The notes under the pieces: model-generated
Seen by the model: only the letters and a program-made list of their open reading frames with translations
What the model was told of the DNA's origin: nothing
Databases searched by the model: none
Assembly: GCA_027021785.1 (NCBI GenBank)
Contig: JALUTR010000265.1
Coordinates: 1-32,001, forward strand
Length of the DNA stretch: 32,001 bases
DNA from: Fidelibacterota bacterium
GTDB lineage: Bacteria; Fidelibacterota; Marinisomatia; Marinisomatales; JAADGP01
Direction: 5' to 3'
Position numbers and translations under genes: made by a program
Shown here: positions 728-31,971 of the stretch, one piece after another
Layout of the letters: each line of letters begins with the position of its first letter
Position numbering within the stretch: the first letter of the stretch is position 1

Positions 728-3700
728 ATGTCAACTTCTCTGAATAAGACGATTGCGCAATTCCTGGATCAGGCCAAACGGTCGAAAATAGATCCGCATG
801 AGCTCCTCGAACTCGCGCAACGGCTACAGAACAATGATGTGTCGCCAACCACGATTCATGAGTTTTTAAAATTAGGTCATTATCCCACCGTAAACTCAGG
901 TTTCACCCGCTCCGATCTGCGGAAAGAATGGTTTTCGGCACTGGTGAACCTGCTCAAATTGTCCAGGTATCATTTCGGGTACCTGATGCGACAGAGAGCC
1001 GAACAATACGCCGATAAACCGTTATTCCAGTTAATCCTTGGGAAACAGGTAAAATCATGCTCTTACCGGGAAAGCTGGGAGAGAATCAAGCAGATCGGCC
1101 GCTCAATTCTCTGTTTCACAGAGAAAACCGAGAATCCGGTAATCGGTATCTACACCCCTAATTCCCTCAAAGGGGCCTTGGTGGACTTAGCCTGCCTGTC
1201 ATTTAATTTTCGCGTGGTCCCGATTCCGGCCAATGTATCGGAAAATCACCTGATTTACATTTTACATCATTCCGGAATCACACATTTATTCCTGGGAGGA
1301 ACAACACCCTGTTCAAATTTTCAACAAATTCCCAAACAGTCATTGCAACTATCGGTAATTCAACTTTCCGATACCGATCATGTTGACTACTCCGCCATCT
1401 CGTGGGATTCGTTTATCGCACAGGGGGTTGGTGCTTCCGACAAAAAATTGTTCGATCGTTTTTCCTCCGTTGGAATGGATGAATTGGCTTCGGTAATGTA
1501 CACGTCGGGAACCACGGCCGATCCGAAAGGAATTATTTTTACGCAAACCAACATTATCTCCAAGCGATTTGCGCGGGCGTTGGCATTACCAGAATTTTCT
1601 TCCGCCGAGGTTTTTTTGTCCTATTTGCCCTTGTATCACACCTTCGGCCGTTTCCTCGAATTGTTGGGGACAATATTCTGGGGAGCAACCTATACCTTCG
1701 CCGAATCCCCGGCCTTTAAGGCCCTGTTAAAAGATTTTCTATTAGTAAAACCAACCGTATTCATCAGCATTCCCAAGCGGTGGATTCAATTAACGGAATT
1801 TTTAAGCTCGCAAATCAACCTTGAAGAGGCGCCAACCGAAAAGATCAAAGACAAACTGAAGCGGATCACCGGCGGGCGATTAAGATGGGGACTGTCCGCA
1901 GCCGGGTATTTGGATCCGGACATATTTATTTTCTTCCGGAAACACGGGATCAACCTGTTAAGCGGCTATGGAATGACGGAAGCCACCGGCGGGATTACCA
2001 TGACCCCTCCCGATGACTACCAGCGCGATTCGGTAGGAAAGCCCTTACCGGGAATAGATGTAAAACTGTCGGAGGATGGCGAGTTGCTTTTGCGCGGCCC
2101 GTATATATCACCCGGCTATTTTCATGACACCGAGCAGACTAACCATACTGACGGTTGGTTTCACACCGGGGACATTTTTCGGGAAAAACGGGGACATTAT
2201 TACATCGTTGACCGGAAAAAAGAAATATACAAAAACAGCCGGGGACAAACCATCTCGCCGCAAAGAATCGAAAATATGTTCCAGGATTTCGAAGCCGTCA
2301 AGACGGTGTTTTTGGTGGGCGATGGCCGGGAATACAATACCTTACTGATTTATCCCGATTTCGAACATACACCGATCGAATTTAAAAAAGGCAATGAACA
2401 ATCAATCAGGGATTATTTCAGTTCCCTGGTTCAATCCGTTAACAGCTTTTTAGCCCCCTATGAACGAATTGTCAATTTTGCTCTGATTCAACGTGACTTT
2501 TCTACTGAATACGGGGAACTGACACCTAAAAAAACGTATAAACGAAAAGTCATCCTGAAAAATTTCGCGTCCATAATCGAACCAATGTACGCCAAAAATT
2601 ACATCAGTTTGGTTTATGACGATTATGAGATCCAGTTGCCGAATTGGTTTCTCAGAGAAAAGGGAATCATAAGATCGGATATTACCTGGGATGGTCGTGA
2701 AATACGAATCCGTAATCATCACGACAAATTACCTTTGCAATGGAATGGGGAAACGGTGCTTGTCGGTGATTATCGCTATTCCTGTCCGCAAGGTGTGCTG
2801 GATATCCAGGCGCTGTTAATGTCGCCGGAACTATGGCTTGGGAACCAATCCCTGGTGGAATTTATCGGCGATCCCATTTTCAGAATTATCGAATTCGAAC
2901 GACCGACGGAAATAACGCTGAAGGAACAGGAACTGATTTTTAACCCGAATTCTTCCGGTCGAGAGTTATACGACATTTTAAAAACCAGCATCCGTGATCA
3001 AAAACCCACCCTCTCCGGTCTGCATACCGCGGCCAAATTATTGCAATGCGGCGAGCGTTATGAACTCCTGACGGCGATAAACCATTTGCACCAGGCCATT
3101 AACCAGCACCCCCATGAGATTGCGCGTATCGGATTGGCATTGCTGCACCGTATGCAATACCACCCCGCCCTCAAAATGAGACTGAAAACGCTGGAATTAA
3201 TGTTGCCCCTTCTCCCGGGAGATCAATTTATCACACTCCTGTTGGACATTTATTCCTACGCTGTTCAAACAAATTCGGTGGAAATTCTGATGCTGGATGA
3301 GCAGGCCCTTCAGGAATCGCACTTCCGTGCGCTACTATCGTATCTCGGCTATTTACGACAAGAACCGGACCTGATTACGAACGACCGGATCGGACTCATC
3401 CAGTGGTTACTGGATATTGTTTCCGATTATGGAAAAGTGCACCCTTCCAGTTATGTTTGGAGTCGTGCGGAGTTAATTTGGTGGCAAATGTCACCGGTTC
3501 CCGGACCCCTCCTTACGGCCTCGGAAAAAGCTTATCACGATCTCGTTGATGGGTTTCGCAAATGGCTGGGACCCGTGTCCAGGTTGGCCATAGACAGGGA
3601 AACCGGGGACGAATATAATTGGGCGGACGTGATCGAATTTGATTCGGGCATCAACCGGGAACTCCGGAACCGGTTGCTGTCAGCCCTGACCAACACACCT

Positions 3701-5344
3701 TTGGTCAGGGAGGCCGTTTTTATCTTTTCGAAACGCCGACTGATACAGTTGGACGATATCCAAAGGCGCGGAATCTGGATCAGCCTGCTCGGGCGAAATC
3801 ATGGAAAGAGCGTATTCCGTGTTTTGGTACAGACGCGCGAGATGGACGCTTTTAATTTTGTAATAAACGTAAACGAAGAATTGGATAAGGAATTTATTCG
3901 GGACGAAATACGGTGGCTGGTAATGACCGGTTCATCGATTCACGGTCCCAAACTGGTGGAAGATTTCGGTGGCTATTGGCCGGAATACGATCTTTACACC
4001 GAAGAATATGTCCCCGGTGAAACGCTTCATCAATACCTGGAACGCAACCGGGAAGAAATCGCCGGCAGAAAAGCCCTGGATCGTTGGCAAATGCGTTGGT
4101 TACACTTTATCTGGAATGGTTTAATGGCCTATTTTGACTTCTGGCGCCGTTCAAGTTATACGCTCCGGATTGACAACCCGTCCGCAAAAAATCTGATTAT
4201 TCCCGAACATGATTATACTTCCGGTACACGCTTAATCTCGATTTCGAACCGGATTTCCGTCGGTCGCGTAGCCGACCTGGTTTTTGATTTATTCGAACGC
4301 TTTATCCTCGCCACCGAAAATGAATATCCCGGTCTGAAACGAATGGCCGATTGGGAAGTCCTTTTCACGGCCATGTTACAGACCGTCTCCGTGAAAAGGG
4401 GAATCAAAATCCTCAAGACCCTGTTGGAGGAATTACAGGACAAATCACTTCTAAACAAAGCGCAGGCACTTGGACTAACACCCAAACGGATCACCGAATT
4501 TATCGATGATGTTAACCTGAACGGTATTCTTACCAAACAGGTCGTATTCGCCGCGCTGCGTTATGAACGCTGGTTGGAACTGAACCCCGAAGCCACTTAT
4601 AAAGCGCGAGGAAATATTCTTCAGGAATTATATAAAGATTACGGGTTAAACGATCTGCTGGAAGATTATCCGGAAACGCGGATCCGGTTTTTCCTGATGA
4701 CCTGTTTCAAAAACGCCAATCAGACTCTTACGGAAAGGTTGCTAAAATTACAAAAAGAACTTCGGGCGCGGACAATCGGTATTGAGGAACTGGAACACAA
4801 ACTGCACGAAATCCATGAATCGCTGGAATTGACCGACGAGGAAGAATATTTTTTCACAAGGTTGCTGTTCGAACATCTGGATGCCGCCGAATACGGAGAA
4901 CTGATCGCCTGGGATCTGGGGACCGGCGGACGATTGGATCTGATTACTTTAACCGAGGACAAATTCGGAGACCGTTACCGAATAAGACCGCCGTTTCATC
5001 CCAAGGAAATAGCCAGGTTTCATTCTATTTTGTTACAGGCGAATTTGTCAGCGAGGTTTCAACAGGCTCACGAATTCCTGTTAATAATAAATGAAAAAGA
5101 TCAACTCGTTGGTGGTGTTTATTGGAAAAAGGTGAGCCCGAAAGTGGCCTACGTGGAAAAAATCGTCATTCGACGACAGTATCAGAAACGTCACTTAAGT
5201 GTTCGCTTATTGGAGGAATTATTCAACCGCTTGCGAACCCGGCGCTTCAAGTATGTAACTGTTGGGTTCTTCCACGCGGGTCTTTTCTACAAATACGGTT
5301 TCCAGATCGATAAACAATTCGGCGGCCTGGTAAAAGTCCTCTGA
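728..5344 (+). CDS. Acyl-CoA ligase (AMP-binding) fused to a kinase-like segment and a C-terminal GNAT-like acyltransferase domain
   Basis: A 1538-residue protein, over twice the usual ~600 residues of a long-chain acyl-CoA synthetase. Residues ~70-640 are a full adenylate-forming ligase: phosphate-binding loop YTSGTTADPKG at 258-268, GYGMTE at 413-418, DGWFHTGD at 475-482, hinge DRKKE at 495-499, and C-terminal ELTPKKTYKR at 597-606, the region that carries the catalytic lysine in this family. Expected chemistry is ATP plus fatty acid plus CoA giving acyl-CoA. Residues ~640-970 have no family I recognise; part is helical and repeat-like. Residues ~1010-1200 look like a degenerate protein-kinase/APH-type fold. 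Residues ~1330-1400 are charged and helical, possibly coiled coil. Residues ~1430-1538 resemble GNAT (VEKIVIRRQYQKRHLSVRLLEEL, then FYKYGF). No signal peptide or membrane segment is evident, so it is probably cytoplasmic. The ATG at 728 has no clear Shine-Dalgarno. It is monocistronic. Ligase call is firm, GNAT likely, kinase-like segment tentative. Confidence 0.85.
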   Translation: MSTSLNKTIAQFLDQAKRSKIDPHELLELAQRLQNNDVSPTTIHEFLKLGHYPTVNSGFTRSDLRKEWFSALVNLLKLSRYHFGYLMRQRAEQYADKPLFQLILGKQVKSCSYRESWERIKQIGRSILCFTEKTENPVIGIYTPNSLKGALVDLACLSFNFRVVPIPANVSENHLIYILHHSGITHLFLGGTTPCSNFQQIPKQSLQLSVIQLSDTDHVDYSAISWDSFIAQGVGASDKKLFDRFSSVGMDELASVMYTSGTTADPKGIIFTQTNIISKRFARALALPEFSSAEVFLSYLPLYHTFGRFLELLGTIFWGATYTFAESPAFKALLKDFLLVKPTVFISIPKRWIQLTEFLSSQINLEEAPTEKIKDKLKRITGGRLRWGLSAAGYLDPDIFIFFRKHGINLLSGYGMTEATGGITMTPPDDYQRDSVGKPLPGIDVKLSEDGELLLRGPYISPGYFHDTEQTNHTDGWFHTGDIFREKRGHYYIVDRKKEIYKNSRGQTISPQRIENMFQDFEAVKTVFLVGDGREYNTLLIYPDFEHTPIEFKKGNEQSIRDYFSSLVQSVNSFLAPYERIVNFALIQRDFSTEYGELTPKKTYKRKVILKNFASIIEPMYAKNYISLVYDDYEIQLPNWFLREKGIIRSDITWDGREIRIRNHHDKLPLQWNGETVLVGDYRYSCPQGVLDIQALLMSPELWLGNQSLVEFIGDPIFRIIEFERPTEITLKEQELIFNPNSSGRELYDILKTSIRDQKPTLSGLHTAAKLLQCGERYELLTAINHLHQAINQHPHEIARIGLALLHRMQYHPALKMRLKTLELMLPLLPGDQFITLLLDIYSYAVQTNSVEILMLDEQALQESHFRALLSYLGYLRQEPDLITNDRIGLIQWLLDIVSDYGKVHPSSYVWSRAELIWWQMSPVPGPLLTASEKAYHDLVDGFRKWLGPVSRLAIDRETGDEYNWADVIEFDSGINRELRNRLLSALTNTPLVREAVFIFSKRRLIQLDDIQRRGIWISLLGRNHGKSVFRVLVQTREMDAFNFVINVNEELDKEFIRDEIRWLVMTGSSIHGPKLVEDFGGYWPEYDLYTEEYVPGETLHQYLERNREEIAGRKALDRWQMRWLHFIWNGLMAYFDFWRRSSYTLRIDNPSAKNLIIPEHDYTSGTRLISISNRISVGRVADLVFDLFERFILATENEYPGLKRMADWEVLFTAMLQTVSVKRGIKILKTLLEELQDKSLLNKAQALGLTPKRITEFIDDVNLNGILTKQVVFAALRYERWLELNPEATYKARGNILQELYKDYGLNDLLEDYPETRIRFFLMTCFKNANQTLTERLLKLQKELRARTIGIEELEHKLHEIHESLELTDEEEYFFTRLLFEHLDAAEYGELIAWDLGTGGRLDLITLTEDKFGDRYRIRPPFHPKEIARFHSILLQANLSARFQQAHEFLLIINEKDQLVGGVYWKKVSPKVAYVEKIVIRRQYQKRHLSVRLLEELFNRLRTRRFKYVTVGFFHAGLFYKYGFQIDKQFGGLVKVL

Positions 5345-15090: not shown

Positions 15091-15102
15091 AAAGGAGTGC
15101 TT

Positions 15103-15510
15103 ATGAACATAACCGATTTAATAAAAAACACCCTGGAAGAACTCCAGAATCTGATGGTTTCAAAACTGATTGTCGGGGATCCGATCCAAACCGGTGATCA
15201 TACGGTTATTCCCGTATCGAAAGTAATGTTCGGTTTTGGCGGGGGCGGGGGTGAGAATACATACAAAAAAGACAATACCGGAACCGGCCAGGGAATCGGT
15301 GGCGGCTGGTCAATCGAACCGGTTGCTTTTGTTGTCATCGGTCCGGACGGAGCACGTTTATTAACGATCGGGGAAAAGGAAAACGCCGTTTCAAAATTGA
15401 TTAACCTTGCGCCTAAGGTCGTTGATGCCGTAAAGGATATGGTCGAAAAAAAGAGCGAGCAGTCAGAGGAAAGTGACCAATCCGGAGATGAATCTTCGTC
15501 TGAAAAATGA
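15103..15510 (+). CDS. GerW/YtfJ-family protein
   Basis: A 135-residue cytoplasmic protein. Near the N terminus it has LIKNTLEELQNLM. Next is GDPIQTGDHTVIPVSKVMFGFGGGGG (25-50), a second glycine-rich run GTGQGIGGGWS (60-70), and IEPVAFVVIGPDGARLL. This is the GerW (YtfJ) pattern, named for a Bacillus spore-germination protein but widespread in non-sporulating bacteria with no known role. The C-terminal ~25 residues are very acidic and serine-rich and look disordered. I chose the ATG at 15103 because AAAGGAG (15091-15097) sits five bases before it. The in-frame GTG at 15097 overlaps that site and is unlikely. It forms a pair with the DUF2953-like gene upstream. Confidence 0.85.
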   Translation: MNITDLIKNTLEELQNLMVSKLIVGDPIQTGDHTVIPVSKVMFGFGGGGGENTYKKDNTGTGQGIGGGWSIEPVAFVVIGPDGARLLTIGEKENAVSKLINLAPKVVDAVKDMVEKKSEQSEESDQSGDESSSEK

Positions 15511-18893: not shown

Positions 18894-19292
18894 TTATCTT
18901 TGCGCTACGCGAAGTCGATTCAACGCCCTCTGAAGGGACGATTCCGCGCGTGTCACATCGATTTTTTGTTTTTGTGAAAGGCGATCCTTGGCGCGTTGTA
19001 TCGCCTCTTTTGCCCTCTCCACATTTATTTCATCCGACCTTTCCGCGGACTCCAACAACAGTTGCACCTTTCTACCCGTTACTTCCGCATATCCACCGCT
19101 GGTGGCAAAATAACGGGGTTCTTCATTCTCCCGGATAATTTTTATCTCCCCCACGGTCAACGCGAATACCGACTTGGTATGGTTTGCCATCACGCCAAAA
19201 AGACCGTCGATTCCGGGGCAACGGACATAAGCAACCTCCCCTTCATCATAGACCCGGGTCGGCGTAACTATCTCTAAATGAAAAGTACTCAC
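18894..19292 (-). CDS. atpC: F1 ATP synthase epsilon subunit
   Basis: Central-stalk subunit of F1, linking the gamma shaft to the c-ring and, in many bacteria, inhibiting ATP hydrolysis. The 132 residues have the N-terminal beta-sandwich (FHLEIVTPTRVYDEGEVAYVRCPGIDGLFGVMANHTKSVFAL) and a full C-terminal two-helix part (about 85-132, RSDEINVERAKEAIQRAKDRL and following). It is the last gene of the operon, two bases after atpD. The complete C-terminal helices mean inhibition through the extended state is structurally possible. Confidence 0.97.
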   Translation of the reverse strand: MSTFHLEIVTPTRVYDEGEVAYVRCPGIDGLFGVMANHTKSVFALTVGEIKIIRENEEPRYFATSGGYAEVTGRKVQLLLESAERSDEINVERAKEAIQRAKDRLSQKQKIDVTRAESSLQRALNRLRVAQR

Positions 19293-19294
19293 AC

Positions 19295-21578
<2,284 letters not shown>

Positions 21579-21590
21579 ACAACCAACCGA

Positions 21591-23120
21591 TTAAGACGCT
21601 TCTTTATAGGCGGCCAGAAAATCTTCGATCACTTTTCGCAGTTCCGTTTCAATATCCTCCGTGATTTCCTGTTTCTCCCGGATACGGGTCAGAATCGGAC
21701 TCCCGGACGACTCAAGATAACTTAAAAACTCGCGACTGAATTCCTTGGTCTGTTGAATCGACAAGCTATCAAGATAGCCATTGACGCCGGCAAAAATCAC
21801 CACCACCTGGTGTTCAACCGAAAGGGGCTCAAACTGGCCCTGGTTCAGGATTTCCACCAACCGGTATCCACGGGTCAATTGTTGCAGGGTGGCTTTATCA
21901 AGATCGGAACCGAATTTCGCAAACGCTTCCAGTTCACGAAACTGCGCCAGGTCCAGTCGCAATGAACCGGCAATCTGTTTCATCGCCTTAATCTGGGCAT
22001 TACCGCCCACCCGCGAAACGGAAATACCTACATTAATCGCCGGACGAACGCCCGAGTAAAAAAGGTCCGATTCCAGAAATATCTGGCCATCGGTAATTGA
22101 GATCACGTTGGTGGGAATGTAGGCCGACACATCACCTTCCTGGGTTTCGATGATCGGCAAAGCCGTTAAGGAGCCACCGCCAAGACTATCATTTAACTTG
22201 GAAGCCCGTTCCAGTAAACGACTATGGAGATTGAAAATATCACCGGGATACGCTTCCCGTCCCGGCGGCCGTCTTAATAATAAGGACAGTTGCCGGTAGG
22301 CAACCGCGTGTTTTGAGAGATCGTCATACACGATCAAGGCATGTTTCCCATTATCGCGGTAGTACTCGCCAAGCGTGCTGCCGGCATAGGGGGCGATAAA
22401 CTGCATCGGCGCCGGGTCGGAAGCATTCGCGGCGATAACGGTTGTGTATTCCATGGCTCCGCGGGCTTCCAGTTCAGCAACCACACGGGCAACCGTGGAA
22501 GCTTTTTGCCCGATAGCTACATAGATACAGTAGACAGGTGAATCAGTTTCGTGCGTATATTTCTGGTTGATAATCGCGTCGATCACGATAGCGGTTTTCC
22601 CGGTTTGCCGATCACCCAGGATGAGTTCCCGCTGCCCTCGTCCGATCGGAATCATGGCGTCAATCGCTTTGATACCGGTCTGAAGCGGCTCCTTCACCGG
22701 TTGTCGTGCCAAAACCCCCAGCGCTTTCCGCTCGATCGGCATTGATTCCCCGGCCGAAACGGGCCCCTTTCCATCCATGGGATGCCCCAGGGGATTCACG
22801 ACCCGGCCCAACATTCCCTCCCCGACGCCGATTTCAACCACCGCGCCGGTTCGTTTTGCCAGGTCACCCTCCTTGACCAGATAGCTTTCCCCGAAGAGTA
22901 CCAGGCCGACGTTGTCTTCTTCCAGATTCAGGGCCATCCCGAATACACCATTAGGAAGTTCGACCAATTCACTTGCCATGACATTTTCCAACCCACTTAC
23001 GTGGGCAATACCATCCCCGACTTCCAGTACCTCACCCACTTCGGAAACATCGATGTGAACATCGTATTTTTCGATCTGTTCTTGTAAAAGTGCTCTTATT
23101 TCTTCGGTTTTGATTTCCAT
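21591..23120 (-). CDS. atpA: F1 ATP synthase alpha subunit
   Basis: Non-catalytic nucleotide-binding subunit that completes the beta active sites. With the ATG at 23120 it has 509 residues. Walker A GDRQTGKT is at 169-176. The arginine finger equivalent to E. coli R376 is R370 in [16 protein letters not shown]. The C-terminal helical domain ends normally. A TTG five codons upstream (23135) is also in frame. I prefer the ATG because the resulting N terminus (MEIKTEEI) resembles the family start, though neither has a strong Shine-Dalgarno. It follows atpH by 18 bases. Confidence 0.97.
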
Positions 23121-23138
23121 AGATTTACCAACCAATTG

Positions 23139-23678
23139 TTAAGTGTGTAAAAGTTCCTGCCTGAGCTGTTTCAAACGATGTTGCAGCGATCCATCGATAA
23201 CGATATTTCCGATCCGGAATTTAATTCCACCAAGAAGACCCGGATCGACAGTAACCTGAAGGTCCGCTTTTTTACCGGTGACCTGTTCCAAAGACTCCCT
23301 TATCCGTATACGGATATCTTCTTCCAGCTCCAGGGCGCTGTAGGCATTAACCGACACCAGGTTCAAAACCTCGTTTTGTTTCCCCCGGTATACAATCGCC
23401 GTCCGTGGGAACAGGTGCCATTCCCTTTTCCCGGCAAGAACACCGAAAAACTCGGCCGCTATCGGGTGACATTTTTTCTTCAGAATCGCCAACAATATTT
23501 GGGTCTTGTCCTTCGGGCTGATTTTGCCGGTATGGAAAAAGGCCCTGAACGCACCATCGGTTTTTATCAGCCTGGATACAATCCCCAACGATTCCCCGAC
23601 TTCAACGACGGCATTATAATGTTGGGCAACATTTATCAGCGCCGCCGCATATTGCTTCGCTTTCCGGTTAAGCTTCAT
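23139..23678 (-). CDS. atpH: F1 ATP synthase delta subunit
   Basis: Peripheral-stalk subunit (OSCP homologue) that ties the top of alpha to the b subunits. Length 179 residues. The N-terminal helical domain begins with AKQYAAALINVAQHYNAV. The C-terminal conserved stretch is VTGKKADLQVTVDPGLLGGIKFRIGNIVIDGSLQHRLKQLRQEL, which is diagnostic. The start overlaps the end of atpF by 11 bases, so the two are translationally coupled and probably made in linked amounts. Confidence 0.96.
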   Translation of the reverse strand: MKLNRKAKQYAAALINVAQHYNAVVEVGESLGIVSRLIKTDGAFRAFFHTGKISPKDKTQILLAILKKKCHPIAAEFFGVLAGKREWHLFPRTAIVYRGKQNEVLNLVSVNAYSALELEEDIRIRIRESLEQVTGKKADLQVTVDPGLLGGIKFRIGNIVIDGSLQHRLKQLRQELLHT

Positions 23679-24174
23679 GAATTGTTTTTACACTTTTTAA
23701 GGAATCCCGGATAAGCGCCAGATTTTCATCCTTTGACAAATTTTTCCCAATCAACTTACCGGCTATTTGCAGAGATAAATCCACCATTTCGACTTTTATC
23801 TCCTTTATCGCCTTTTCCTTTTCCCGCTGGATTTGTTTCTCGGCATTTTTCAGCATCGCATCCGCCTTCCCCTTGGTTTGCTCCAAGGTCTCATCTCTGA
23901 GCCGATTGGCAATAACCTTTCCTTCGGAAACAATCTTTCGCGCCTCATTTCTGGCCTTGGCAATAATGGCTTCCGATTCTTGTTGCAACCGTTCCAGTTC
24001 CTGCCTGGCCTTTTCCGCGTCGTCCAACGATTTGCGGATTGTCTCTTCCCGTTTCTCCAGCATGGCCAACAACGGTTTCCAGGCAAACTTGGCCAACAGG
24101 AAAAGGAGAACCAAAAAAGTTATGATGGTCCAGATAAATAAGCCTGGATCCGGTTGTACTAAGGGATTCGTCAT
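23668..24174 (-). CDS. atpF: Fo ATP synthase b subunit
   Basis: Peripheral-stalk subunit. The 168 residues have one N-terminal membrane helix (about 10-30, LFIWTIITFLVLLFLLAKFAW), followed by KPLLAMLEKREETIRKSLDDAEKARQELERLQ and a long charged coiled coil to about 140. Only one b-type gene is present, so the stalk should be a homodimer. It overlaps atpH by 11 bases. The 159-base gap to atpE upstream is the longest inside the operon. Confidence 0.96.
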   Translation of the reverse strand: MTNPLVQPDPGLFIWTIITFLVLLFLLAKFAWKPLLAMLEKREETIRKSLDDAEKARQELERLQQESEAIIAKARNEARKIVSEGKVIANRLRDETLEQTKGKADAMLKNAEKQIQREKEKAIKEIKVEMVDLSLQIAGKLIGKNLSKDENLALIRDSLKSVKTIHEA

Positions 24175-24333
24175 CGCTTTCTCCCAGTATTCGGGTGGTT
24201 CATTGTTTGGTTAGTGACGTACCACATCGTTTTTGTATTGATTACAACCTTACTCTATTCTCAGGTGAAAGGTTATTGTATACGTTACACGGGAGTCCAC
24301 CAACCAATATAAATCACCGTCCTTCCATACTAA

Positions 24334-24558
24334 TTATTTCATCAGGACAATGAGTAATGCAAAGACCTCAGCCAGGATTGCCACCCCTTCCAAAAGGAAC
24401 AACGGCAGGTTTACGGCGGCGGTAATTTTATCTGCTGCTTCGGGTTGTCGCGCTATACTTTCCGCTGCGGCAGCAGTGAAACGACCAATTCCGATACCCG
24501 CACCGATCACAATCATCCCCAGACCGAGCGCAGCGCCAAAGTAGTGTAGGTTTTCCAT
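24334..24558 (-). CDS. atpE: Fo ATP synthase c subunit
   Basis: Proteolipid of the rotor ring, 74 residues. Helix 1 has the glycine-rich run GLGMIVIGAGIGIGR and the loop has ARQPEA, the F1-contact motif. Helix 2 has LLEGVAILAEVFALLIVL with the ion-binding Glu57. The residue after it is Gly and the helix 1 glutamine of Na+-type rings is absent, so H+ coupling is more likely. A second acid, Glu64, sits two turns further along the same helix, which is unusual. The start is supported by GAGGTG seven bases upstream. The ring stoichiometry cannot be read. Confidence 0.97.
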   Translation of the reverse strand: MENLHYFGAALGLGMIVIGAGIGIGRFTAAAAESIARQPEAADKITAAVNLPLFLLEGVAILAEVFALLIVLMK

Positions 24559-24589
24559 GATTCACACCTCTAGTTATTATGTTTAATGT

Positions 24590-25513
24590 TTAATGATGAA
24601 CGTTTATTGCCATGCCGATAAAAACGGCCGACAGCATGGTAAAGACATACGCCTGAACCAGAATTACGATTATCTCCAAAGCCGAAACACCAACCGCCAG
24701 AGGGACGGAAATGACGATGCCGACTCCGATTCCGGCCAATGCACTGTGAAACAGGCCGGAAAAGATAAAGACAAACGAGAGGATTGCCAGGATGGCAATA
24801 TGGCCTCCCGTCATGTTGGCGGCTAAACGCATCGTCAAGGCAAATGGTTTAACCAGCATCCCCATGATTTCAATGGGTATCAGCATGATATAAAGGGGCC
24901 ATGCAAAACCCGGGGGAACCAAATTTTTCCAATGTTGAATAAATCCGTGCGCTCTTGAGCCCGCGATAATGATCGAAATAAAAGTAACCAGAGCCAGACC
25001 GGCGGTTACGTTATAATTACCGGTGGCGGTGACGCCGCCGTGCAAAAGGGTATTTATAAACTGCTTCTCCTCCGGCCCGACCCGGAGAATCAGACGGTTT
25101 ATGGCTCCTAACACGTCAAACACGGGGATCAAACCGAATCCATTGGCAGTAACAATGAAAAAGAAAAAAGTAAGAATCAGGGGAGTCCATGATAATAAAT
25201 ACTTGCGGCCCACGTTGGGCAATACAATCGAATCCCTGATGTATTCCACAATCGCTTCCAGGGCGTTCATGAACCCGGTCGGAACCGGGCGATCCTGTTT
25301 TAAATATTTTCTGACCGACCAGGTAACCGCCGTAAAAACCAACGCGGATACAATCCAAAGCAATAAAACGTGTTTGGTGACGGAAAAATCAATTCCCCAC
25401 AGGGTCGGCAATTCAAATATCGGGTGTTCCAGTGAACTATTGGAAACGTGTTCAATAATTACCTCACCAGCGTCAAATTCATTGGCGCCGTGGCCTTGTA
25501 CCGCTAAGCTCAT
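24590..25513 (-). CDS. atpB: Fo ATP synthase a subunit
   Basis: Stator channel subunit, with half-channels carrying ions to and from the c-ring. At 307 residues it is longer than E. coli (271), with an N-terminal extension and an extra loop near 135-170 (IGAINR-like to NYNVTAG) that I associate with FCB sequences. The essential Arg229 is in KPFALTMRLAANMTGGH. Five or more hydrophobic segments are evident. The start is set by AGCGAGGA just upstream. The gap to atpE is 31 bases and to the AtpI-like gene 18 bases. Confidence 0.96.
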   Translation of the reverse strand: MSLAVQGHGANEFDAGEVIIEHVSNSSLEHPIFELPTLWGIDFSVTKHVLLLWIVSALVFTAVTWSVRKYLKQDRPVPTGFMNALEAIVEYIRDSIVLPNVGRKYLLSWTPLILTFFFFIVTANGFGLIPVFDVLGAINRLILRVGPEEKQFINTLLHGGVTATGNYNVTAGLALVTFISIIIAGSRAHGFIQHWKNLVPPGFAWPLYIMLIPIEIMGMLVKPFALTMRLAANMTGGHIAILAILSFVFIFSGLFHSALAGIGVGIVISVPLAVGVSALEIIVILVQAYVFTMLSAVFIGMAINVHH

Positions 25514-25531
25514 CGTCCTCGCTTAAATTGT

Positions 25532-25891
25532 TTAATTCTGTTTAGCTCTGAAGGTCTTGGTAAAATAAATCGCTTCCAAACCATGAAGCAGGATAAAAAA
25601 GCCTGCGAAGCTAACAATAAATGCTAAAGGGTCAAAACCTAAAATTACAACAATCACCACTATATAAACACCGTATAAAACCATTTTCGCTATCAAGGCT
25701 TTTACCAAGAGATTCGTCACTCTCCGCGGTTCCTTATTATGGGTATGCGTTACTATCAAAACGGTTGTAACCCCCACCAGGAGGGGTGCGATCATTCCTG
25801 CGAATATTTCCCCCGTATAACCGGGAATCAACCTCGCGAGAATTCCCCAGGCACCGAAGCAGAACAAGGTTAAAAAAAAACTGAATTTCAT
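25532..25891 (-). CDS. AtpI-like membrane protein (ATP synthase subunit I family)
   Basis: A 119-residue protein with four hydrophobic segments (about 3-21, 28-48, 62-85 and 88-110). Subunit I proteins assist c-ring assembly and Mg2+ supply in some bacteria, and their genes lie at the start of atp operons. Sequence conservation in this family is low; placement just before atpB and the four-helix profile are the main support. The function is inferred. Confidence 0.75.
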   Translation of the reverse strand: MKFSFFLTLFCFGAWGILARLIPGYTGEIFAGMIAPLLVGVTTVLIVTHTHNKEPRRVTNLLVKALIAKMVLYGVYIVVIVVILGFDPLAFIVSFAGFFILLHGLEAIYFTKTFRAKQN

Positions 25892-25981
25892 CGGGAAACA
25901 CCCATACCCATTGAGATTCTACAAAACGGACTCAATGATACAGCCGACAAGAAGCGCTAAATTCGAATATTCTCATCCGGA

Positions 25982-26227
25982 TCACCGGCGATTTTTCCAC
26001 ACGACTTTCGCAATCTCGTAAAAACCAACGATTATTCCCAACAACAAACCGCCCAATAAAAACCACGGTCTCGTGTCTTGCCAGCGATCAATTAAATAAC
26101 CTAATCCCCCTAACAGGATAATCGCACCGATCATGGTATAGGAAGCGGAGGCGGCGGGACCACTTTGACGAACTATTTTTTGCAGATAGCGAAAAGAGCT
26201 CGCTAAAAAATTTTCCTCATCAGCCAT
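25982..26227 (-). CDS. AtpZ/AtpI-family protein (small ATP synthase accessory protein)
   Basis: With the start at 26227 this is an 81-residue protein. It has two membrane helices (about 28-45, SYTMIGAIILLGGLGYLID, and 52-70, WFLLGGLLLGIIVGFYEI), separated by DRWQDTRP. The short hairpin and the G-Y-x-x-D-R-W motif fit the AtpZ family, whose members are thought to form Mg2+/Ca2+-related partners of AtpI. A longer in-frame start at 26296 would overlap the bactofilin gene by 41 bases. I prefer the internal ATG, which leaves 28 bases. The gap to the AtpI-like gene is 90 bases. Confidence 0.82.
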   Translation of the reverse strand: MADEENFLASSFRYLQKIVRQSGPAASASYTMIGAIILLGGLGYLIDRWQDTRPWFLLGGLLLGIIVGFYEIAKVVWKNRR

Positions 26228-26255
26228 CGATATGCCTATTCCATGCAGCGTTAAA

Positions 26256-26633
26256 TTATTTTTTCCCGACATTGTTTGCCTGAACCGCTGATTCATTCAA
26301 TGACCTGACATCACAACGTCCCTCGAATTGCGCTCCTTCTTCGATTGCCAATCGGCGGTAAACCAAATCCCCGGCGAGCGCCGATTCGTGGCCTAACACC
26401 ACACGGTTTCCGGCCGTCACATTACCTTTTACGGTGCCGCCGATATGTACGTCGCTGGCGGTAACATTGCCTTGCACTATTGCACCTTTCGCTATCCGCA
26501 CCGGCCCCTTGGTAGTGATATGACCATATATTTTTCCATATACGATCAAGCCACCCTCCAACTCAACATTGCCGGTCACCGTCGCATCCGCGCCGATCAT
26601 CGTGTGAACATTCTGAAAATCGATCTTACTCAT
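26256..26633 (-). CDS. Bactofilin (polymer-forming cytoskeletal protein)
   Basis: A 125-residue protein forming one beta-helix domain. The regular repeats of G, V and N are plain to see: GADATVTGNVELEGGLIVYGKIYGHITTKGPVRIAKGAIVQGNVTASDVHIGGTVKGNVTAG. Short termini flank it. Bactofilins polymerise without nucleotides and position cell-wall or segregation factors. Its start overlaps the M23 peptidase gene by 8 bases, so the two are coupled. M23 peptidases commonly neighbour bactofilins and act on peptidoglycan under bactofilin control. Confidence 0.93.
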   Translation of the reverse strand: MSKIDFQNVHTMIGADATVTGNVELEGGLIVYGKIYGHITTKGPVRIAKGAIVQGNVTASDVHIGGTVKGNVTAGNRVVLGHESALAGDLVYRRLAIEEGAQFEGRCDVRSLNESAVQANNVGKK

Positions 26634-27438: not shown

Positions 27439-28305
27439 TCATGAAATTGAGCGTAACAAATCGATAATCCGTTCCAGATCATCGGCGGAGAAATAGGATA
27501 CTTCAATGCGACCGCCTTTTCGTTGCGGAACAATTTTAACTTTTGTTCCCAGGATCGATATAAGTTCATCTTCCAGGGGCTTAACCGGCCGGTCGACAAC
27601 TTTTTCGGCGCTTTTTTTCTGCGGTGCCGGTTTCGGGGCCGCCTTTGATTTCGCATAAGCCTCCGCCGCCCGGACACTCATACCATTTTGTACAATTTGT
27701 TTCCACAGTTTGTATTTGGCGGCGGTTGTTTTCATCATTAGAATAGCGCGACCGTGCCCGGCTGAAATGCTTCCTTCACGAATACTATCGCGGATTTCCT
27801 TGGGGAGCGTCAATAAACGTAAGGCATTGGCGACGGTCACTCTCTTTTTCCCCACCGCCTGAGCGATCTTTTCCTGGGGTAAATCAAACTTGCTGTTTAA
27901 AAAAGCGTACGCTTCCGCTTCTTCGATAGGATTCAGATTTTCGCGTTGGATGTTTTCGATGAGGGACATTTCCATCATTTCCGCTTCATCGGACACCTCC
28001 ACCAAATAGGCCGGGATATCACGTAATCCGGCCATTAACGCCGCGCGCAGGCGACGTTCCCCTGCCACTAAATAAAACCGGCCGTCCTCAATCCTGACCG
28101 TAATTGGCGTAAGCACCCCCTTCTCCTTAATCGATGCCGCCAATTCCTCCAGTGCAACTTCGTCAAATTCCTGTCGCGGCTGATGAGGGTTGGGTTTAAT
28201 ATCCTTAATCGGAATAGTGGCGGCGCCCTGCCGGGTGGTGGGGAGCGTATCTTCACGAGGTCTTATTAAGGCTTCCAGGCCCCGACCTAAGCGTTTATCG
28301 GACAC
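27439..28305 (-). CDS. parB: Chromosome partitioning protein ParB (Spo0J type)
   Basis: CTP-dependent DNA clamp that loads at parS and spreads. With the GTG at 28305 it has 288 residues and starts MSDKRLGRGLEALI, the family N terminus that stimulates ParA. The CTP-binding GERRLRA is at 82-88. ENIQRENLNPIEEA follows at 117-130, and then the helix-turn-helix (LPQEKIAQAVGKKRVTVANALRLL). The C-terminal dimer domain is at 235-288. I chose GTG because AGGAG lies 10 bases upstream; the in-frame TTG at 28323 overlaps that site. It overlaps parA by 11 bases. Confidence 0.96.
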   Translation of the reverse strand: MSDKRLGRGLEALIRPREDTLPTTRQGAATIPIKDIKPNPHQPRQEFDEVALEELAASIKEKGVLTPITVRIEDGRFYLVAGERRLRAALMAGLRDIPAYLVEVSDEAEMMEMSLIENIQRENLNPIEEAEAYAFLNSKFDLPQEKIAQAVGKKRVTVANALRLLTLPKEIRDSIREGSISAGHGRAILMMKTTAAKYKLWKQIVQNGMSVRAAEAYAKSKAAPKPAPQKKSAEKVVDRPVKPLEDELISILGTKVKIVPQRKGGRIEVSYFSADDLERIIDLLRSIS

Positions 28306-29059
28306 GTTCCAGAATCTCCTCAACTAAATTCATATAATTGCGAGCCCCCGTGGAATTGGCATCGTACAGCAAAGCCGGTTTCCCAAAACTGGGGGCTTCT
28401 CCTAAACGGACATTACGATGAATCACGGTTTTAAACAATTTATCTTCGAAATAGCTCTCTACCTCCTGAGCCACTTCTTTCGACAAATTCAGCCGGCTGT
28501 CGTACATCGTAAGCAATACCCCGGCAATCGTTAAATTTGTGTTCAAATGTCTTTGAACCAATCGAATCGTATTCAACAGTTGTCCCAGACCTTCCAGAGC
28601 GTAATATTCGCATTGAATCGGAATAATGATCATATCCGAAGCCGTAAGCGCATTGATCGTCAACAATCCTAAGGACGGGGGACAATCCAGGATAATAAAA
28701 TCGTATTTGGATTTAATCGATTCCAGGGCGTTTTTCACCTGATATTCCCGTGCCATCAAACTTACCAATTCAATTTCCGCCCCCACCAAATCGTGGGTTG
28801 AAGACACAAGATCAAGGTGGTCAAACTGCGTCCTGGTGATGGCCTGATCAACGGGGATGCCCCGGATTAATACGTCGTAGATAGTCGCCGGTGAATCCTG
28901 GGTCAAATCCGAAATACCCGTAGTGGCGTTGGCCTGGGGGTCTAAATCGATTAATAAGGTTTTCATTTCGGTAACCGCCAAACTCACCGCTATGTTAACG
29001 GCCGATGTGGTTTTCCCCACACCACCTTTTTGATTTGCTATTGAAATTATTCGTGACAT
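28295..29059 (-). CDS. parA: Chromosome partitioning ATPase ParA (Soj type)
   Basis: Walker-type ATPase that binds DNA as a dimer and moves ParB-parS complexes. The 254 residues lack the N-terminal domain of plasmid ParA, so this is the chromosomal type. Deviant Walker A KGGVGKTT is at 11-18, with the signature lysine K11. LLIDLDPQANATTG follows, then DFIILDCPPSLGLLTINALTASD. The C-terminal half is complete. It is the first gene of the long minus-strand cluster. There is no Shine-Dalgarno before the ATG. The promoter should be just right of 29059. Confidence 0.97.
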   Translation of the reverse strand: MSRIISIANQKGGVGKTTSAVNIAVSLAVTEMKTLLIDLDPQANATTGISDLTQDSPATIYDVLIRGIPVDQAITRTQFDHLDLVSSTHDLVGAEIELVSLMAREYQVKNALESIKSKYDFIILDCPPSLGLLTINALTASDMIIIPIQCEYYALEGLGQLLNTIRLVQRHLNTNLTIAGVLLTMYDSRLNLSKEVAQEVESYFEDKLFKTVIHRNVRLGEAPSFGKPALLYDANSTGARNYMNLVEEILERVR

Positions 29060-29759: not shown

Positions 29760-30785
29760 ATGAAAGCTCTGGTTAAACGGTCCGCCGAACCCGGCATTTG
29801 GATGGAAGACGTTCCCGCCCCCGCCCTCTCCACGAATGATATTTTAATCAGGATCGAAAAAACGGCTATCTGCGGCACCGATCTTCATATATATGAATGG
29901 AATGACTGGGCCCAACGGACCATCAAACCGCCGGTAATTATCGGCCATGAATTTGTCGGTGAGGTCGTGGAAATCGGGCCGGGCGTCACCCATTATTCGG
30001 TGGGCGACCGTGTTTCCGGGGAAGGACACATCACCTGCGGGTATTGCCGTAATTGCCGGGCCGGTAAACGACATTTGTGCAACCTTACGATCGGGATCGG
30101 CATTAATCGTGACGGGGCGTTTGCCGAATACCTGGTAATGCCCGAAAGAAATATCTGGCCCGTCCATAAAGATATTCCCTCCGACATCGCTTCCTTTTTC
30201 GATCCTTTCGGCAACGCAACCCATTGCGCCCTGTCATTTGAAATGGTTGGTGAGGACGTATTGATTACCGGAGCGGGGCCGATCGGAATCATGGCGGTCG
30301 CGATTTGCCGCTTCGTGGGCGCCCGCCACATCGTCATCACGGATATTAACGAATACCGACTCGCGCTGGCACGTAAAATGGGCGCGTCGCTTACCTTAAA
30401 TGTGACGCGGGAAAAAATTGAGGACAGTATTGCCAGGCTCGGTATGACCGACGGATTCGATATCGGCCTGGAAATGTCCGGTAATCCACGGGCTTTTAAC
30501 GACATGGTAAAAACCATGTATCATGGTGGTCGAATCGCTTTACTTGGTATTCTGCCAGAAACCACACGGATAAACTGGGACGACGTAATTTTTAAAGGTC
30601 TTCATATCAAAGGGATTTATGGCCGGGAAATGTTCGAAACCTGGTATAAAATGACCCAAATGCTGCAAAGCGGGCTGGATATTTCTCCGGTTTTAACGCA
30701 TAAATTTCACGTCGACGATTTTCAACAGGCCTTCGATATAATGGAATCAGGCCGTTGTGGGAAAGTAATATTGGAGTGGGATTAA
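29760..30785 (+). CDS. tdh: L-threonine 3-dehydrogenase
   Basis: Zinc- and NAD-dependent medium-chain dehydrogenase converting threonine to 2-amino-3-ketobutyrate. At 341 residues it is the same length as the E. coli enzyme. Catalytic zinc residues are C38 ([15 protein letters not shown]), H63 and E64 ([12 protein letters not shown]). Structural zinc cysteines are C93, C96, C99 and C107. The Rossmann motif GAGPIG follows. The start is the first Met of the conserved N terminus; Shine-Dalgarno is weak. kbl follows after a single base, so the two are co-transcribed and the unstable product can pass straight to Kbl. Confidence 0.96.
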
Positions 30786-30786
30786 T

Positions 30787-31971
30787 ATGAAACAAGGTAA
30801 AGAAATATACCAATCCACGCTCAACCGGATTAACGCGGACGGTTTGTACAAAAAAGAACGCACAATCACAACCCCGCAAGGGGTAACGATCAATACCGTG
30901 GAAGGGGGCGAAGTCCTTAATTTTTGTGCAAACAACTACCTGGGGCTGGCCAACCATCCGGACATCATCGCCGCGGCCCGGAAAGCATTGGAAGACTACG
31001 GATTCGGGCTGGCGTCGGTGCGGTTTATTTGCGGGACACAAGACATCCACAAAAACCTGGAAAGAACGATCGCGACTTTTTTCGGTACCGATGACGCCAT
31101 TTTGTACACCAGTTGTTTTGACGCCAACGGGGGATTGTTCGAGACCCTGTTAGGGCCGGAAGACGCCGTTATCAGCGACGCGTTAAACCATGCTTCCATT
31201 ATCGACGGGATCCGGTTGTGCAAAGCCCGGCGCTATCGCTACGCGCACAGCGATATGTCGGATTTGGAGGACAAACTAAAGGAAGCGCAATCCGCCCGGT
31301 TGCGCCTCATTGCCACCGATGGTGTCTTCAGCATGGACGGGGATATAGCCCGCCTGGATGAGATTGTTCCGTTAGCGAAAAAATACAATGCTATGGTCAT
31401 GGTTGACGATTCGCACGCCACCGGATTCGTCGGCCCGACGGGCCGCGGGTCAGGAGAATACCACGATGTTTTGGACGAGATCGATATAATAACTTCAACT
31501 CTGGGGAAAGCCCTGGGCGGCGCTTCGGGAGGTTTCACCACCGCAAGCCGGGAAATCATTGACCTGCTGCGGCAGCGATCCCGCCCCTATCTCTTTTCCA
31601 ATACGTTGACCCCGGCCATCGTGGCAGCGGGAATCAAGGTGTTTGAAATGCTGTCAGCGACAACGGAATTACGCGACAGGCTGGAAGCCAATACCCGGTA
31701 TTTTCGGCAAAAAATGACTGCCGTCGGGTTCGACATCAAACCGGGAGACCATCCGATTGTCCCCATCATGCTGTATGACGCGGTACTGGCGCAGAAAATG
31801 GCCGCCGCCCTCCTCGAGGAAGGAATCTACGTTATCGGGTTTTTCTATCCGGTGGTTCCCAAGGGTGAAGCCCGCATACGGGTGCAAATTTCCGCCGCGC
31901 ACGAAAAGGAACACCTGGATCGGGCGGTAACGGCGTTTGAAAAAACGGGGCAAAAACTGGGCGTCATTTAA
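30787..31971 (+). CDS. kbl: 2-amino-3-ketobutyrate CoA ligase (glycine C-acetyltransferase)
   Basis: PLP enzyme of the alpha-oxoamine synthase family that splits 2-amino-3-ketobutyrate with CoA into glycine and acetyl-CoA. Length 394, close to the E. coli 398. The N-terminal [14 protein letters not shown] is canonical. The PLP lysine is K241 in [14 protein letters not shown], and [16 protein letters not shown] lies before it with the cofactor-binding Asp and His. It completes the two-step threonine-to-glycine route with tdh. The gene ends 30 bases before the window edge; that tail is too short to interpret. Confidence 0.96.

Follow-up and report, generated by a model that had tools for sequence, protein, structure and literature searches.

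A conserved bacterial fusion of an AMP-forming acyl-CoA ligase, a predicted kinase-like fold and a GNAT domain

Introduction

Five types of bacterial GNAT protein acetyltransferases have been published, and neither an AMP-forming ligase nor a kinase-like domain is part of any of them (PMC8556138; PMC11254643). In types I and II, an inactive NDP-forming ligase domain is joined to the GNAT domain (PMC8556138). In another described system, AcuA binds the AMP-forming ligase AcsA and acetylates its A10 lysine K549, by which AcsA is shut off (PMC11255334).

Here we describe a gene of a Marinimicrobia genome whose product joins an acyl-CoA ligase, a kinase-like fold and a GNAT domain in one chain. 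A prior description of this combination was not found in the open-access literature, and neither an AMP-forming ligase-GNAT fusion nor a pseudokinase of Marinimicrobia was found there, most subscription journals lying outside this body of literature. The fusion protein is real and ancient and, judged by sequence constraint, functional.

Results

The fusion gene occupies positions 728..5344 on the plus strand of the window, i.e. the whole 32,001-nucleotide stretch of DNA that was analysed, and encodes, from an ATG start, 1538 residues plus a stop codon without any internal stop. All of its features given below are on the same strand. The AMP-binding N-domain of an acyl-CoA ligase was found at 989..2122 (residues 88-465; PF00501, E 1.9e-56), and the ligase C-terminal domain AMP-binding_C_3 at 2237..2596 (residues 504-623; PF23562, E 3.9e-12). 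The P-loop YTSGTT..PKG lies at residues 258-268 and the A5 motif SGYGMTE at residues 412-418; with A7 and A8 also present, the protein has the full motif set of an AMP-forming acyl-CoA ligase (ANL, PF00501). Residue conservation was counted over 67 non-redundant family members, and it was found that K267 (the P-loop lysine), E418, D482, R496, K498 and K601 were invariant in 67/67. The initial annotation had credited the ligase half with every expected motif, and both the Pfam matches and these invariant residues agree with it. Because the motif residues, including K601, are kept in every member, the ligase should be active. K601 (2528..2530, in K-G/N-T-F/Y-K-R) is probably the catalytic A10 lysine, although pairwise alignments to carboxylic acid reductase (CAR) set it 1-2 residues away from the A10 lysine of that enzyme. 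The closest ligase relatives in NCBIfam and the PDB were FadD-type fatty acid-CoA ligases and the CAR A domain, suggesting that the acid is probably of medium or long chain. The NCBIfam score for FadD11 was 174.7 bits against a cut-off of 950, and the ligase fell under every curated cut-off among the matches listed.

The roughly 800 residues in the middle had been described as matching nothing. By sequence profile this still holds, since no Pfam family was found over residues 625-1420 of the window protein and no credible Pfam or PDB match was obtained with profiles of the middle region. Matches to NB-ARC, seen in six members out of 39 with a best E of 0.0032 and below the cut-off in the window copy, were judged to be spurious hits on the glycine loop HGKSVF. 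By fold it does not hold, as AlphaFold2 and Foldseek revealed a kinase-like part. The AlphaFold2 model of residues 630-1538 (39 sequences; pLDDT 87.3, pTM 0.75) placed a small beta-rich subdomain with conserved W, G, N and F positions at 2615..2887 (residues ~630-720), then an all-helical array at 2960..3577 (residues ~745-950), neither of which could be matched to a known family. They were followed by the kinase-like fold at 3725..4717 (residues ~1000-1330) and, at 4718..4888, by a helical connector leading to the GNAT domain.

For residues 965-1330, AlphaFold2 gave a model with pLDDT of 91.8 and pTM of 0.88 (60 sequences). Foldseek of this model against the PDB returned 665 matches at E <= 0.001, and the best 50 of the 665 were all of kinase fold; the kinase-fold matches included JAK2, FGFR2, Bud32, PRPK, CK2 and small-molecule phosphotransferases. 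The predicted model and the Foldseek matches thus both indicate a bilobal kinase fold. The TM-scores to kinases were modest (<=0.56 by target length among the matches listed), which suggests that the kinase-like fold is a divergent one, and sequence similarity to known kinases was undetectable in a profile search against the PDB. The kinase motif positions were placed by hand from the alignment and the AlphaFold2 secondary structure. The beta3 lysine was replaced by asparagine (N1047) in 63/67 members, and aspartate was observed in just 20/67 at the HRD position and in 13/67 at the DFG position; the window copy has N1150 and N1155 in the catalytic loop and N1174 at the DFG position. Hence, most of the 67 members lack the residues of an active protein kinase (beta3 Lys, HRD Asp and DFG Asp) and are probably pseudokinases. 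Retained were K1027 of the glycine loop (60/67), E1060 of alphaC (60/67) and N1155 of the catalytic loop (59/67), and a catalytic loop of the form D-x-x-x-x-N persisted in some members (KSB1, f31). The retention of these three residues together with the loss of the catalytic ones would suit a binding role rather than phosphotransfer. K1027 lies at what we take to be the place of the WNK kinase lysine, which serves as a lead only.

It had been noted earlier that the C-terminal ~110 residues look like a GNAT fold. A GNAT domain was indeed found at 4889..5341 (residues ~1388-1538): Acetyltransf_10 was matched at residues 1422-1512 (E 5.8e-7, 30.0 bits against a cut-off of 23.6) and Acetyltransf_1 at residues 1443-1525 (27.5 bits against 20.7), and a GNAT Pfam family was matched in 39/39 aligned relatives. 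A profile built from 35 GNAT segments found Tetrahymena GCN5 (tGCN5) at E 1.3e-10 as well as other GCN5/KAT2 chains, and RimI was the commonest NCBIfam match of the segments (20/35), with the member shown far under the equivalog cut-off. Residues 1400-1538, on whose fold the initial proposal had been made to depend, are predicted by AlphaFold2 to fold as a GNAT domain, which Foldseek superposed on tGCN5 (1qst) with an rmsd of 2.0 A over 114 columns. Known GCN5 and RimI members are acetyl-CoA enzymes acting on proteins.

The pyrophosphate (CoA) loop of this GNAT domain does not follow the pattern Q/R-x-x-G-x-G/A; in the window copy it reads QKRHLS (5183..5200, residues 1486-1491). Across the family, the first glycine was present in 24/67 members, and the final position was Ser in 62/67 and Gly in 5/67. 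His takes the place of the first glycine in the lineage of the window. Deep-branching members carry SGRGIS (f31), RGRGLS or RGGGVS (f30) and RKKGVS (KSB1), and RGRGIS was also found among them. On this alignment, the first glycine has been lost in a large part of the window's order rather than throughout the family. The column of E1477 (5156..5158, strand beta4), two residues past that of the tGCN5 catalytic Glu, holds E or D in 66/67 members, making E1477 a candidate general base; the catalytic Glu column itself holds mostly His (47/67). In the first half of the domain, R1420 was invariant and H1448 and K1426 were nearly so.

Selective constraint was estimated as NG86 dN/dS in eight close pairs for four modules, the GNAT value being computable in seven pairs. 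In 7/7 usable pairs, dN/dS was lower for the GNAT domain (0.010-0.091) than for any of the other three modules, which argues that this domain is not a relic. Between the window and its sister, the values were 0.020 for the GNAT domain, 0.045 for the kinase-like part, 0.048 for the ligase and 0.093 for the helical array, which was the highest, and thus the least constrained, in 8/8 pairs. The degenerate CoA loop had led the initial annotation to regard transferase activity as uncertain. The degeneracy is confirmed for the window copy, but the doubt about activity is eased by the low dN/dS and by the canonical or near-canonical loops of the deep branches. The same evidence makes it improbable that the protein is otherwise an ordinary acyl-CoA ligase whose GNAT and kinase-like folds have no catalytic role and serve for ligand binding or as scaffolds. 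Such a role would agree with the absence of the first loop glycine from most of the window's order and with the mostly lost kinase catalytic residues; it agrees poorly with a GNAT domain that is the most constrained module, keeps an acid at 1477 in nearly every member and has an intact or nearly intact loop in the deep branches.

Searches were made genome by genome in two phyla. In the window's phylum (Marinimicrobia), 95/245 genomes gave a match; after eight matches to the GNAT end only (E about 3e-5 to 4e-4) were left out, the fusion, nearly always full-length, was counted in 87/245 genomes, some of which belong to the two distant families f30 and f31. It was also found in 10/82 genomes of the phylum of the KSB1 genome. 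A near-full-length protein in one frame was common to many families of the window's order. The fusion was not found in the small-genome family f15 (among the members listed) or in most families at middle distance. An independent collection yielded 37 loci from Marinimicrobia/Neomarinimicrobiota, one 'FCB group', a few 'bacterium' and one KSB1. The survey proposed at the outset thus showed recurrence in ~97 genomes of two phyla, so that the architecture is not specific to one assembly; with the same domain order, nearly always in one frame, a chimeric contig or read-through artefact is next to impossible. A plasmid-borne or mobile element was also rejected, as tblastn of residues 630-1538 against 72,556 plasmids gave no match. 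At two loci (L062, 7941-12546; L064, 7941-12558) the fusion ORF was in two overlapping frames, probably owing to a MAG frameshift or recent decay. Two genomes had a second, partial copy (G009:C9, at a contig end, and G105:C52), possibly a paralogue.

Separate FastTree trees of the ligase, middle and GNAT modules recovered broadly the same groups, the short GNAT alignment being weakly supported. Such broad agreement would follow from a single joining of the modules and their common inheritance thereafter, and the fusion appears to have arisen once and to have descended undivided in both Marinimicrobia and KSB1.

One reading of such joint conservation, put forward in the initial annotation, is a relay in cis: the acyl-CoA made by the ligase would serve the GNAT domain as donor for the N-acylation of an amine, which might be found on an amino lipid head group, on a polyamine or on a lysine of a protein. 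This relay is somewhat doubtful. In its favour, the two phyla have kept the ligase and GNAT modules together, the ligase motifs are complete, the GNAT domain is strongly constrained, and invariant R1420 with nearly invariant H1448 and K1426 suggests one fixed acceptor. Fusions of acid-activating and acyl-transferring enzymes are common in biosynthesis (Aas), which was also counted for it. However, the closest relatives of the GNAT domain are GCN5/RimI, not the long-chain N-acyltransferases; being GCN5/RimI-like, it points to acetyl-CoA, so that donor and product may not match with a FadD/CAR-like ligase. Recurring biosynthetic neighbour genes were not found.

In the window, the tail of a TrpB-like gene lies just upstream of the fusion gene and secA is convergent downstream; here the gene does stand alone, as had been described. 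A recurring same-strand neighbour that could be an operon partner was not found across families. Most Marinimicrobia loci (most of L038-L071) have a convergent DUF420-SCO1-ctaB-ctaA-cox cluster and a divergent GAF-HD-type gene, an arrangement not present in the window's lineage. Elsewhere in the window, the minus strand carries ATP synthase genes, of which those for subunits epsilon, beta, gamma, alpha and a were identified, and after them parB and parA (18894-26633 and 27439-29059). A zinc alcohol dehydrogenase-family gene and then a class I/II aminotransferase-family gene (29760-31971) are possibly threonine dehydrogenase and glycine C-acetyltransferase. A Spore_YtfJ family protein (15097-15510, E 6.2e-24) adjoins a weak DUF2953 match; to our knowledge, the window's group is not known as spore formers.

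In f30, in f31 and at the KSB1 loci L124 and L126, no more than a few genes separate the fusion gene from a citrate synthase gene, and a third KSB1 locus (L127) has an acetate kinase gene (ackA) nearby; in all, one or the other lies a few genes away at L102-L111, L124, L126 and L127. The citrate synthase neighbours belong to two different subfamilies and lie on both sides of the fusion gene, and neither they nor ackA are ever co-directional with it. This pattern, spotted after the fact, is only suggestive of a tie with acetyl-CoA metabolism. An NADP-glutamate dehydrogenase gene is divergent in f30/f31.

These neighbours bear on another reading, in which the protein is an acetyltransferase of the sensor type, comparable to Pat types I-III, that modifies other proteins, e.g. 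citrate synthase, with the ligase and pseudokinase reporting acyl-CoA or nucleotide levels to the GNAT domain. This is unlikely. The recurrence of citrate synthase neighbours of two subfamilies on both sides, and of ackA, would fit it, and in the published types I and II a GNAT domain is linked to a ligase-like domain that provides allosteric control (PMC8556138); but every ligase catalytic motif is kept in all members, unlike in the inactive ligase domains of Pat, and the neighbours never run in the direction of the fusion gene and differ in the window's order.

Discussion

We tentatively favour the reading that the protein is an acyl-CoA ligase with its own GNAT regulator, a possible rather than a probable one; it is preferred only slightly, relay to an external amine being a near-equal rival. 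In this cis-regulation, the GNAT domain, being GCN5/RimI-like, would probably use acetyl-CoA and would acetylate a protein lysine, most likely K601 of the ligase itself, so that abundant acetyl-CoA would switch the ligase off; the action of AcuA on AcsA is a precedent in trans (PMC11255334). The two ends would be kept together by the pseudokinase and the helical array, which may also gate the reaction via nucleotide binding. The complete conservation of the ligase and GNAT modules suits cis-regulation and relay alike. Cis-regulation is favoured a little because kinship with GCN5/RimI speaks for acetyl-CoA as donor and a protein as acceptor, and it is as good an alternative as the relay because the published ligase-GNAT pairs (AcuA/AcsA and Pat types I/II) are regulatory; the citrate synthase and ackA neighbours in deep branches also fit a link to acetyl-CoA status. 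Against cis-regulation stand the His at the first loop glycine in the window's lineage and in most members at the GCN5 catalytic Glu column, the inexact A10 register of K601, the fact that the citrate synthase neighbours never form a same-strand operon, and the inactivity of the fused ligase domain in the published types I/II.

It is conceivable, if rather doubtful, that the protein represents a sixth type of bacterial GNAT acyltransferase, a new cis-acting switch or relay with a complete AMP-forming ligase, a nucleotide-sensing pseudokinase and an acyltransferase; one chain would then make, sense and spend acyl-CoA. More broadly, one chain may link the making of a CoA thioester to its use or sensing. 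Should its parts communicate, the fusion would offer a one-gene system for testing the coupling of a CoA ligase to protein or amine acylation and would add a bacterial pseudokinase within a metabolic enzyme. The hosts are marine and sediment bacteria with little biochemistry to date.

Each module has known counterparts. The ligase domain is homologous to FadD11, PRK06187 and the CAR A domain, but FadD-type ligases and the CAR A domain are without a C-terminal fusion of this kind. The kinase-like part shares the order of beta1-beta3, alphaC, hinge, alphaE and catalytic loop with eukaryotic-type kinase folds (Bud32/PRPK, FGFR2, JAK2, CK2), whereas it is without their beta3 Lys and most of their Asp residues. 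GCN5/RimI GNATs are the nearest profiles and share the fold; compared with them, the fusion GNAT has mostly His at the catalytic Glu column with E/D two residues on, and Ser instead of Gly/Ala at the last CoA-loop position.

As a whole, the fusion resembles type I/II proteins (Pat, PatZ) in having a large ligase-related domain and a GNAT domain in one chain. The Pat/PatZ ligase domain is NDP-forming and inactive, and this family was absent from the Pfam matches of the window protein, whose unrelated ligase is AMP-forming and motif-complete and is accompanied by a pseudokinase. The fusion protein thus lies outside the five published GNAT types but may nevertheless work like types I/II. With AcuA/AcsA of Bacillus subtilis it shares the pairing of a GNAT domain with an AMP-forming CoA ligase and the A10 lysine as a possible target; AcuA and AcsA are two separate proteins (PMC11255334), whereas the fusion holds both functions in one chain, with a ligase that is FadD/CAR-like rather than an acetyl-CoA synthetase.
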